Positions 747 to 4,481 of a DNA stretch of 38,231 nt are shown here, one piece after another; position 1 is the first letter of the stretch; every line of letters starts with the position of its first letter. The translations under genes were made by a program, and so were the position numbers. The notes beneath the pieces were generated by a model that saw only the letters and a program-made list of their open reading frames with translations, ran no database searches and was not told the origin of the DNA. The stretch comes from an uncultured Coriobacteriia bacterium (GTDB lineage: Bacteria; Actinomycetota; Coriobacteriia; Anaerosomatales; PALSA-660), in NCBI GenBank assembly GCA_903831865.1, contig CAIKZH010000025.1, forward strand, positions 1 to 38,231, read 5' to 3'.

Positions 747-775
747 TTCGACAATCATCGAAGTGATGGTATCAT
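747..775 (+). promoter_or_regulatory. hgcAB promoter with overlapping inverted repeat
   Basis: A -35 box TCGACA (748-753) and a -10 box TATCAT (770-775) are separated by 16 bp, each matching consensus at five of six positions. The inverted repeat TTCGACAATCATCGAA (747-762) covers the -35 box and the start of the spacer, a classic repressor position. A start near 782 would leave about 30 nt before the ATG at 813, which supports that upstream start for hgcA. ArsR-type regulators are often reported near hgcAB, but none is encoded here, so the identity of the binding protein is unknown. Confidence 0.55.
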
Positions 776-812: not shown

Positions 813-1937
813 ATGACCGACACGATCACACGGCCAGTCGAATCTGAGGCACCTTGTTGAGGCCCTCGCACCCTGCCGTGCAGCGGGGTCGAGAGACCGA
901 GCCTCGACCAGCCCTTCGTCACCGGGTCCCTGGACACGGCCACAGGCCAGGTCCCGATCGTGCCCACCACGCTGACGCGACGCGATAGACTCGGCGGCCT
1001 GAGGGTCCGCTGGGGGATCCGCCGCTTCAGCTACACCGTGGACCCTGGCCTGTACGCCGTCGGGCACCCGGACGACCGCTCACCTGTGCTCGTGACGGCG
1101 AACTACAAGCTCACATTCGATTCGCTCCGCAGGGAGCTCGCCAGCCGCGCCGCCTGGGTGCTGGCGCTCGACACGAGGGGCATCAACGTGTGGTGCGCCG
1201 CCGGCAAGGGCACGTTCGGAACAGACGAGGCGGTGCGGAGGATCGACGCGGCCCGGCTCTCTCAGGTCGTCTCGCACAACGTCGTCGTGCTTCCGCAACT
1301 GGGGGCTCCGGGCGTCTGTGCGCCGGACGTGAAGCGACGGTCCGGGTTCCGTGTCGTGTGGGGACCCGTCCGCGCCGCGGACCTGCCCGCCTTCCTCGGC
1401 GCCGGCATGCGCGCCACGGACGAGATGCGGCGCGTGCGCTTCCCGCTGCGCGATCGTCTGGTCCTCGCGCCGGTCGAGCTCATGGGCGCCGCGAAGATCG
1501 CGCTCGCCATCGTGGCGGCTGCGGCGATCGTGGGAGGCGTCGGCCCCGGGATCTTCTCGCTCCCCCGTGCGTGGGCGGCGGCGTGGCCGGCCGCAGCCGC
1601 GGTCGCGGCGGCGCTCGTCGCCGGCGCGGTCGTGACGCCCGCGCTGCTGCCATGGGTCCCGGGACGGATGTTCGCGCTCAAGGGCGCGGAGGTCGGTGCG
1701 CTCGCCGCGGCGATCCTGCTCGTCCCATTGGCGCGGGCGTTCCCGGTGCTGCGGCTCGCGGCAAGCGCGATCTTCATGGTGGCCGCGACATCGTTCATCG
1801 CCATGAACTACACCGGCACATCCACCTTCACGTCGCTCTCGGGAGTGAAGAAGGAGATGCGGGCCGCGCTCCCGTGGCAGGTCGGCTCGGCGGCGCTGGC
1901 CGCCGCGCTCTGGATCGCAGGAGGATTCGTCCGATGA
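813..1937 (+). CDS. hgcA: HgcA, mercury-methylating corrinoid membrane protein; predicted selenoprotein (in-frame TGA 858-860)
   Basis: HgcA transfers a methyl group from its corrinoid cofactor to Hg(II), giving methylmercury. The cap-helix signature NVWCAAGK is present at residues 125-132, with Cys128 as the lower-ligand cysteine. Five membrane helices follow at about 222-244, 254-277, 292-310, 312-332 and 354-371. The first canonical start without a stop is GTG 960, but family-like coding (DQPFVTGSLDTATGQVPIV) continues in frame upstream of it. The frame runs back to ATG 813, well placed behind a promoter, and is interrupted only by TGA at codon 16 (APC-TGA-GPR). From memory, several HgcA proteins carry CC at this point, so Sec is the best reading. 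The full product would be 374 residues, a normal HgcA length. No strong Shine-Dalgarno is seen at 813. The stop overlaps hgcB by 4 bp. HgcA identity is near certain; Sec insertion is inference. Confidence 0.93.
861..898 (+). promoter_or_regulatory. Candidate bacterial SECIS region of hgcA
   Basis: Directly after the TGA, CUGC (873-876) pairs with GCAG (880-883) around a CGU loop (877-879). CC (871-872) can extend the stem with GG (885-886) past a bulged C. The loop G lies 18 nt after the UGA, inside the 16-37 nt window known for bacterial SECIS elements and close to the spacing in E. coli fdhF. A second small hairpin, GGUC-GAGA-GACC (887-898), follows. The stems are short, so the call rests on position and on the GU in the loop. 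Confidence 0.45.
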
Positions 1938-2209
1938 CAGGCATGCGCTACGTGGACGACGTCGTCACCCTGGAGTTCGATGTCGAGAAGTGCACGGGCT
2001 GTCAGCAGTGCACCCTCGTCTGCCCCCACCGGGTCTTCGAGATGAGGGGCGACCGCGCCGCGCTCGTCGACCGGGACGCCTGCATCGAGTGCGGCGCCTG
2101 CGCACGCAACTGCGCCTTCGACGCGATCCACGTGCGCCCCGGCGTGGGCTGCGCGTCCGCGATCATCGCGTCCTGGTTCGGAGGCAGAGCCGAGCCCTGC
2201 TGCGGGTAG
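1934..2209 (+). CDS. hgcB: HgcB, ferredoxin partner of HgcA
   Basis: HgcB is the small 2[4Fe-4S] ferredoxin that works with HgcA. It is thought to deliver low-potential electrons to the corrinoid and to pass Hg(II) to it. The 91 residues carry CTGCQQCTLVC and the HgcB-typical CIECGACARNC, and end in the vicinal pair CC-Gly, the proposed Hg(II)-binding tail. The ATG at 1934 overlaps the hgcA stop (ATGA), so the two are translationally coupled. The internal ATG at residue 4 is a possible alternative start. The pairing with HgcA and the CC tail make the identification firm. Confidence 0.95.
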   Translation: MTGMRYVDDVVTLEFDVEKCTGCQQCTLVCPHRVFEMRGDRAALVDRDACIECGACARNCAFDAIHVRPGVGCASAIIASWFGGRAEPCCG

Positions 2210-2240: not shown

Positions 2241-2999
2241 TCAGAGACCGCCGTCATTGGAAGCCGACAGCGCGGCCCCGTAGGCGCCCACCGTCTGCGC
2301 GTCCACCGGCACCAGCACATCGCCCGCGTAGCTCTCACGCACCAGTGCGACCATCGCCGGATTCCGTGCCACGCCACCCGCGAAGACGAGCGGCCCCGTG
2401 GCCCCCACCCGCTTGAGCGTCGAGATCGTCCTGCGGACGATGGACTCGTGCAGCCCCCGGGCGATGAGCCCCCGATCGACGCCGCGATGCACGAGGCCGG
2501 TGACCTCGCTCTCCGCGAACACGGTACACATCGAGGAGATCTGTACGTCGCCCGTCGCCGCGAGTGAGTGCGCCGCCATCTCCTCGAGGCTGAAGCCAAG
2601 CGCCCTCGCCATCACTTCCAGGAACTTGCCGGTTCCCGCTGCGCACTTGTCGTTCATCTCGAAGTCGGCGACACGGCCGCCCGCCAGGAGGGAGATCGCC
2701 TTGGTGTCCTGCCCGCCGATGTCGAGGACGGCTCCGGCCTGGGGGAACAGCGCCGATGCGCCGACGGCGTACGCCTTGATCTCGGTGACGACCTGGGCGC
2801 CGAAGGACTCACCGGCCACTCGCCGGCCGTACCCCGTCGCAACGATGAGGTCGTGATCGCCCCGGCCGACGAACGCGGCGGCCACGGAAGCCGGGTCGAA
2901 CCCGGAGTCCGCAACCGCCGCGTCAACGACCGTCGTGCCCTCGAGCCACACTGCGTCGACCGATCGCGAACCGATGTCGAGACCCAGTACACGCCGCAT
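2241..2999 (-). CDS. BcrAD/BadFG/HgdC-type ATPase activator of the adjacent double-cubane protein
   Basis: This 252-residue protein belongs to the ASKHA-fold activators of 2-hydroxyacyl-CoA dehydratases and benzoyl-CoA reductases (HgdC, BadF, YjiL). A homodimer holds one [4Fe-4S] cluster and uses ATP hydrolysis to push electrons to very low potential. Visible marks are the N-terminal phosphate loop LGLDIGSRS, the segment DIGGQDTKAI, the cluster-ligand helix NDKCAAGTGKFLE, a second conserved Cys in ISSMCTVFAESE, and the adenosine loop FAGGVARN. It starts 32 nt after the stop of the double-cubane protein gene, so the two form one operon. Its specific partner is inferred from this pairing. Confidence 0.9.
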   Translation of the reverse strand: MRRVLGLDIGSRSVDAVWLEGTTVVDAAVADSGFDPASVAAAFVGRGDHDLIVATGYGRRVAGESFGAQVVTEIKAYAVGASALFPQAGAVLDIGGQDTKAISLLAGGRVADFEMNDKCAAGTGKFLEVMARALGFSLEEMAAHSLAATGDVQISSMCTVFAESEVTGLVHRGVDRGLIARGLHESIVRRTISTLKRVGATGPLVFAGGVARNPAMVALVRESYAGDVLVPVDAQTVGAYGAALSASNDGGL

Positions 3000-3031
3000 C
3001 GGTCCGCCCGCTCTCCGCCTCGAACGCTTCG

Positions 3032-4315
3032 CTACTTGACCATCTCGAGGAACGCCTCGACACGGGTGGAGAGCTGACCGACGTCCTCCATCGAGTAATC
3101 CGTGTCGATGCTGAGCACGGGCACGCCGGCGTCCCGGCAGGCCCGCTCCACATGCTCGGACTCGATCTGGTAAGCGTTGCAGTACTGCAGCGAGTAGTCG
3201 ATCACGCCGTCGGCCTTGAGGTCCTTCGCCATGCGGACCACGTCGTCGAGCCGACCCTGGTTGGGCGTGAAGCAGGCGCAGTTGATGTCCAGGTACTTCT
3301 CGGCGATGTCGTCGATCATCGCGTCGAGATCGGAGCCGTCTTCCTTGACCAGGCTCTCGTAGTAGCGCGAGCCCGTGCACATCTCCTCGCCGACGACGAC
3401 GCCGCCGGCCTTTTCGACGATGTCGTGGAGCTTCCAGTTCGGGAGCGCCATCGGCGTGCCGGTGATGAGGATCCGCGGTGCGCCCTTCGGCGCCACACCG
3501 ACACCGTCGGCAACGCGCTTCTCCAGCTCGTCCGCCAGCGCGTTCATGGACTGCGTGAAGCGCGGCACGTCGTCGTAGAAGGCGACCTGCGTCGCGAGCA
3601 GCGCGTCCTTGCCGGAGATCGGCGCGGGATCGGCGGCGCGGGTCGCGGCGATCCGCTGGAGGGCGCGACGCTTGTCGTTGACCTCCTTGATGGAGGCACG
3701 TAGGCTCTCGACGCCGACCTTCTTCCCGGTCAGATCCTCCACCTTGTGCATCAGGTCCACGATCTCGCTGCGCCACATCGCGAGGTCCTTGTCGCGCTTC
3801 ATCTGCGGGAGCTCCATGACGTAGACGTTGTGCATCTCGCCGAAGATCTCGTAGGCCTTCTTCTTACCGTCGCACGTGGTCTCACCGATGATGAGGTCCG
3901 ACTCCTCCATGTAGGGGCAGACCTTGGCGAGCTTGAAGCCGACGAACGACTTGATGAGCGAGCACGTGTTGCGAGGCATGATGCGCTCGACCTCGTCGTA
4001 GGCGAACTCCGCGCCGGCGCACAGCCCGACGCACCAGCCACCGGCCGCGCGGATGATCTCCTCGGGCACGTAGAGACAGAACGTCCCGACGACCTTGCCT
4101 CCTGCCTTGCGGAAGTCGTCGAGTTCCTTGATCCGCAGACCGTGCACCTCGGTCATCACGAAATCGAGGTACCCCATGCCCTCGGGCCGATTCTCCTGAG
4201 TGAGGTACGTCGCACCGTAGAGACTGCCGACGGCACCCAGCAGAGCGTCGTGCGCCTCAAGGTTCAGGCCAAGTTCCGACCACATCTTGCGGTAGTCGAC
4301 CTTCGTGTCGCTCAT
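3032..4315 (-). CDS. Double-cubane-cluster protein (YjiM/DCCP type, HgdB/BcrB superfamily)
   Basis: This single-subunit member of the 2-hydroxyacyl-CoA dehydratase superfamily resembles E. coli YjiM and the double-cubane protein of Carboxydothermus, which carries an [8Fe-9S] cluster and reduces small molecules with ATP-driven electrons. The 427 residues include VGTFCLYVPEEI, PRNTCSLIKS, VCPYMEESD, ETTCDGKKK, EEMCTGSRYY and ACFTPNQGR, the cysteine-bearing blocks of this family, and a closing DYSMEDVGQLSTRVEAFLE. The start is ATG 4313-4315, with GGAGGG 5 nt upstream. The longer frame from 4339 has no such site. The physiological substrate is unknown. It is co-transcribed with the activator and converges on hgcAB. 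Confidence 0.9.
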   Translation of the reverse strand: MSDTKVDYRKMWSELGLNLEAHDALLGAVGSLYGATYLTQENRPEGMGYLDFVMTEVHGLRIKELDDFRKAGGKVVGTFCLYVPEEIIRAAGGWCVGLCAGAEFAYDEVERIMPRNTCSLIKSFVGFKLAKVCPYMEESDLIIGETTCDGKKKAYEIFGEMHNVYVMELPQMKRDKDLAMWRSEIVDLMHKVEDLTGKKVGVESLRASIKEVNDKRRALQRIAATRAADPAPISGKDALLATQVAFYDDVPRFTQSMNALADELEKRVADGVGVAPKGAPRILITGTPMALPNWKLHDIVEKAGGVVVGEEMCTGSRYYESLVKEDGSDLDAMIDDIAEKYLDINCACFTPNQGRLDDVVRMAKDLKADGVIDYSLQYCNAYQIESEHVERACRDAGVPVLSIDTDYSMEDVGQLSTRVEAFLEMVK

Positions 4316-4481
4316 CACGCCCTCCAAATGATCGCGCAAGTGCCGAGACTGACCGCGCCACGATGGTGCGGTACGGCAGAGTATAGGACAGAGCCATGCG
4401 TTCCATAAGAGGATTCTGAAATTGGGCGTGTAGATTCTCTCCGCCCCGGAAGCGCCCCGTGTTCGTGAAGCGATGCGTTCG

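Follow-up and report, generated by a model that had tools for sequence, protein, structure and literature searches.

The window, by which we mean the whole analysed stretch of 38,231 nucleotides from an uncultured Coriobacteriia bacterium, carries an hgcA–hgcB gene pair whose features are collected in Table 1. The hgcA frame opens at ATG 813 and has a single interruption, the TGA at 858–860, after which it continues with GGC CCT CGC (GPR) and stays open to its terminal TGA; the product reads MTDTITRPVESEAPC-U-GPRTLPC.... An earlier note on this DNA had described an hgcA-like frame from ATG 813 broken only by that TGA, and the protein read through with Sec16 does score 425.6 bits on the NCBI model NF040863 (cut-off 275). 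The cap-helix motif NVWCAAGKG (family form N(I/V)WCAAGKG) with the corrinoid-facing Cys128 is present, the predicted model has membrane helices at the C-terminus, and the hgcA stop codon overlaps the ATG of the adjoining hgcB, whose product has Cys rather than Sec at its GVGC site. The same note placed ATG 813 behind a promoter, and a sigma-70 consensus scan upstream of hgcA indeed found one such site against 0.1 expected. The Shine-Dalgarno sequence of ATG 813 looks weak, while several relatives have a clear GGAG before their starts. The neighbors lie on the opposite strand: serS (PF02403), a seryl-tRNA synthetase gene divergent from hgcAB (2–637), and, next to hgcAB (2241–4339), a 2-hydroxyglutaryl-CoA dehydratase D-component-like protein (PF06050) and a BadF/BcrA-type ATPase (PF01869).

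Table 1. Features of the hgcAB locus in the window
Feature	Positions	Strand	Basis and remarks
Palindromic operator TTCGACAATCATCGAA, 16 bases, probable ArsR-family site	747–762	.	genome matches before ArsR-family genes
Sigma-70-like promoter (predicted), -35 TCGACA at 748, -10 TATCAT ending at 775	748–775	+	consensus scan, 10 of 12 matches
hgcA	813–1937	+	374 residues with Sec16 counted; stop TGA 1935–1937; NF040863 match; start backed by relatives
Codons of the predicted vicinal pair, Cys15 (TGT 855–857) and Sec16 (TGA 858–860)	855–860	+	all relatives from the family have TGT-TGA; other homologues have Cys-Cys
Predicted SECIS hairpin, 7-bp stem (870–876 with 883–889), 6-base loop (877–882)	870–889	+	covariation in nine sequences
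hgcB, ferredoxin partner with GVGC and C-terminal CCG	1934–2209	+	NF040864, 120.5 bits (cut-off 99)

The TGA is not peculiar to this genome. It follows TGT at the same aligned place and in the same CUGP context in all seven other sampled genomes of the window's family (three genera), and likewise in one genome of another family of the order; elsewhere in the order the aligned place holds Cys-Cys or lacks a pair. Wider HgcA homologues display either Cys-Cys or Cys-TGA at this place, flanked by GP or PP residues, and amino acids are conserved on both sides of the TGA. The statement in the earlier note that some HgcA proteins have two cysteines at this point was correct, and the N-terminal alignment that it proposed gives Cys or TGA among relatives at the site of codon 16. 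The nearest named record is that of a Coriobacteriia bacterium (L001, 61% identical), whose hgcA is the same as that of L117 from the window's genus; an Anaerosomatales record (L025) likewise has the same hgcA as L114 from the window's order. These matches make an origin of the window in a coriobacterium of the Anaerosomatales very probable. A third cysteine close to the pair, residue 22, is shared among the family relatives with L106 only.

A hairpin that could serve as the SECIS element lies a few bases downstream of the TGA. Across nine sequences 96.8% of its cells are paired, and double-sided (compensatory) changes number nine against 3.0 ± 1.3 in shuffled alignments, a count that none of 500 shuffles reached; the pairing is lost when the partner strand is slid by one to three columns. 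The stability of the region downstream of the TGA, or of the aligned Cys codon, was also compared with that of synonymous recodings of the same sequence. In a first set the TGA homologues have a mean z of -1.19 (n = 24, including the false call L128 discussed below) versus +0.10 for Cys-Cys forms (n = 57; p = 4.5e-6, kinship ignored), and in a second, separately fetched set the values are -1.34 (n = 38) versus +0.21 (n = 31; p = 5.9e-9, kinship ignored); both p-values are optimistic in that related sequences are treated as independent. The window's own hairpin, set by itself against synonymous shuffles, has no significant extra stability (z -0.55), and so the hairpin evidence is comparative.

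The standard code opens the main frame at an in-frame GTG at 960, and the TGA might accordingly be a true stop that ends a 15-residue leader, with HgcA restarted at GTG 960 or another internal start. The conservation of the residues that flank the TGA argues against this, and so do three further observations. First, differences among seven relatives between the TGA and position 960 fall 27, 16, and 56% at codon positions 1, 2, and 3, and the undisputed hgcA core gives 23, 17, and 61%; the disputed stretch evolves in a coding pattern, like the core. Second, the codons aligned to GTG 960 in eight relatives are GTA, GTG, ATT, GTT, ATT, GTC, GTC, and ATC, so that by this alignment GTG 960 is not a conserved start (GTG in one of the eight). 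Third, in the AlphaFold model of HgcA the confident fold starts near residue 31 and includes strands at 38–42 and 45–50, both of which would be lost if translation began at codon 50, the GTG at 960; residues 1–20, including the Cys-Sec pair, are disordered. The non-conserved start, the coding pattern, and the predicted fold lead us to reject a restart at 960, which is very improbable.

The rest of the genome is equipped for selenocysteine. The earlier note had proposed a search for selA, selB, selC, and selD, and all four were found, with selD, selA, selB, and the tRNA-Sec gene (anticodon TCA) clustered on one contig (C126). The selD frame also contains a TGA, at the place where SelD usually has Sec (...KSGUAAKYG...; L131, contig C126), and SelD is a predicted selenoprotein. 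Each of the eight other genomes whose hgcA contains the TGA has selB, a distribution that is consistent with Sec decoding and is non-discriminating, since 16 of 21 genomes of the class that lack a TGA in hgcA carry selB too. Decoding of UGA as an ordinary amino acid by a suppressor tRNA or a changed code would explain the open frame and nothing more; hgcA itself terminates in TGA, a codon that therefore still signals termination here, the genome encodes a complete Sec system, and the confinement of the hairpin to TGA homologues runs counter to ordinary read-through, so that the chance of this is negligible and a changed genetic code is ruled out by the hgcA stop and the sel machinery. A single base change would turn TGA into a Cys codon, and many homologues have Cys-Cys, as would suit an error in sequencing or assembly, or a gene in decay, with a codon that is or was TGT or TGC. 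This too has next to no chance and is ruled out by independent assemblies: the same TGA recurs in eight others of the class, and about 50 hgcA loci from other bacteria carry it as well. The hairpin is specific to the TGA forms, and the remainder of hgcA is intact.

We conclude that the TGA at 858–860 is very probably decoded as Sec, on strong comparative evidence. Here the central proposal of the earlier note, a Sec codon in a Cys-Sec motif, finds conservation, covarying hairpin, sel genes, coding pattern, and predicted fold in agreement. Translation would start at ATG 813, and SelB and tRNA-Sec, directed by the hairpin, would insert Sec at the UGA; the resulting HgcA would consist of a disordered N-terminal tail with Cys15-Sec16, a corrinoid-binding domain with the cap-helix Cys128, and a membrane domain, in that order. 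Our explanation as a whole, in which a selenoprotein gene starting at ATG 813 is joined to a role for the tail and to ArsR-type control (both discussed below), seems to us very probable.

Sec forms of HgcA are not a rarity. By calls that are pattern-based with limited checking, so that a few may be wrong, TGA forms make up 38 of 92 classified HgcA loci drawn evenly from the phylum to which a Deltaproteobacteria record belongs, and within the window's class they make up 8 of 30 distinct loci; N-terminal Cys-Cys forms account for 30 and 15 loci of the two samples, respectively, and 24 and 7 have neither kind of pair at the HgcA N-terminus. As many HgcA proteins lack it, the pair is not essential for all of them. 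Cys directly precedes Sec in 53 of 62 Sec forms; at the same place in HgcA the order is reversed (Sec-Cys) in L170, L175, L181, and L212, and a lone Sec is found in L154, L168, L214, and L228. One call of the 'CU' pattern, in L128, is false: there the TGA precedes the start of HgcA and lacks both the conserved context and the hairpin, and chance 'CU' patterns in non-coding upstream sequence do arise in this way. The same locus (genome G023 of the window's order, minus strand) has hgcB running in frame, with no intervening stop, into an arsM-like arsenite methyltransferase gene, for which a separate ATG preceded by GGAG is also present; an HgcB-ArsM fusion or a tight overlap of the two genes is possible there.

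A quick tree built from 201 HgcA cores requires at least 19 changes of the Sec state, where shuffled labels require 53. As read from these sequences, Sec is inherited within clades, yet it has been swapped with Cys or lost many times; such repeated interchange is expected of a site at which the two residues have the same function. Sec also seems to occur in the partner protein, since ten loci (L003, L017, L020, L028, L052, L055, L072, L076, L078, and L080) have an hgcB with TGA at the conserved GVGC cysteine; all of them belong to one HgcA clade of Desulfobacterales-type records and represent one change on the tree. No locus has Sec in both proteins, 55 have it in HgcA only, 10 in HgcB only, and 113 in neither (Fisher p = 0.03), but because HgcB-Sec is a single clade with one change, mutual exclusion is not claimed.

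The palindrome TTCGACAATCATCGAA overlaps the hgcA promoter and is preserved upstream of hgcA in the relatives from the window's family, except L103, and less well in L130. Scanned over the whole 2.16-Mb genome with at most one mismatch, the pattern TTCGACANNCATCGAA has three matches (control 0), and the other two precede genes for ArsR-family proteins (PF01022; L247, 1501–1890, and L248, 1501–1909) whose Cys motifs are CCDAEELCACK in one and CCSPDAVCAC in the other. Since the palindrome's only other sites in the genome precede ArsR-family genes, an ArsR-family sensor binding at 747–762 is the probable regulator of hgcAB, which suggests that the two genes belong to a metal(loid)-sensing ArsR regulon. 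ArsR-like genes adjoining hgcAB have been reported from other bacteria (PMC7438021).

What the predicted Cys-Sec pair does is less secure than its presence. Hg(II) binds selenols very strongly, more tightly than it does thiols, and vicinal or nearby Cys-Sec pairs are redox-active in many selenoproteins. In the role that we find most likely, the thiol-selenol pair of the flexible tail would bind a soft metal and bring Hg(II) to the corrinoid or take methylmercury from it; we put this at slightly under an even chance. The Cys-Sec tail would then act as a partner of, or an alternative to, the Cys-Cys tail of HgcB; MerA likewise exemplifies an Hg(II)-carrying tail with vicinal ligands. In HgcB the two cysteines at the C-terminus of a disordered tail have been proposed to deliver Hg(II) to the corrinoid or to remove methylmercury from it, and loss of both lowers activity by 95% (PMC7305189). 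Nearly as plausible is that Sec is inserted and that the pair has a redox function, forming a selenenyl-sulfide to protect HgcA or to switch it, or keeping the corrinoid in a low oxidation state, or that it is a ligand for a metal or metalloid other than mercury. The many redox-active Cys-Sec pairs of other selenoproteins are a precedent for the former, and hints of a metalloid come from the ArsR-type operator before hgcAB and from arsM directly after hgcB in one relative; set against these are the strength of Hg(II)-selenol binding, the standing of HgcA as a mercury methylase, and the requirement of the HgcB Cys tail for mercury methylation (PMC7305189). A further claim, that the N-terminal Cys-Sec tail is a mercury-binding arm of methylation and thereby ties methylmercury formation to selenium, we regard as rather unlikely. 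The pair in its flexible tail is a concrete candidate ligand for Hg(II) on the route to the corrinoid. Methylmercury is the form of mercury that accumulates in food webs, and if that claim were true its formation would, in a large share of natural methylators, depend on the supply of selenium through Sec synthesis, a dependence that would go beyond Hg-Se chemistry outside the enzyme. Sec forms are frequent in the samples drawn here, whereas the HgcAB biochemistry cited is that of one strain, ND132. A gene caller that takes the first standard start past the TGA would cut off the N-terminal part of hgcA genes of this kind.

The idea of a Sec-containing HgcA is not new, and the window hgcA is a well-supported new example from an actinobacterial lineage, in a class where hgcA has been known since 2020 (PMC7438021). 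Sec-HgcA has been predicted as NF040863, with motif 'CU' and WP_250697417.1 as example, in Table 1 of PMC13188914, which credits Haft and Gwadz (2023, J Bacteriol 205:e00259-22), and Sec in HgcA is also mentioned in PMC11588087; a further credit, in the review that holds Table 1, to a 2008 ocean-sampling paper (its reference 61) is not traceable in the main text of that paper. To that table we add the SECIS covariation, the hairpin contrast between TGA and Cys forms, figures for how frequent the Sec forms are and how often Sec and Cys have changed, and the ArsR-type operator. The window protein belongs to the same family as the NF040863 example and has the same Cys-Sec motif, with UGA and a downstream SECIS element, in both cases predicted by comparison; unlike that entry it has the third nearby Cys at residue 22. 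Sec-HgcB (NF040864, motif 'GVGU' in the same Table 1) is likewise a predicted selenoprotein of the hgcAB pair, but its Sec is at the GVGC cysteine of HgcB, whereas that of the window would be in HgcA. The N-terminal Cys-Cys forms of HgcA correspond in aligned position and in the flanking GP or PP; they have Cys in the place of Sec and no excess of hairpin stability downstream. Finally, the Cys-Cys tail of HgcB (Cys94/Cys95 in ND132; PMC7305189) resembles the predicted HgcA tail in being flexible and in carrying two neighboring soft ligands next to the corrinoid domain, but it belongs to the other subunit, lies at the C-terminus, and consists of two cysteines with a function supported by mutants, whereas the window's HgcA would have an N-terminal Cys-Sec pair to which we assign a function by inference.
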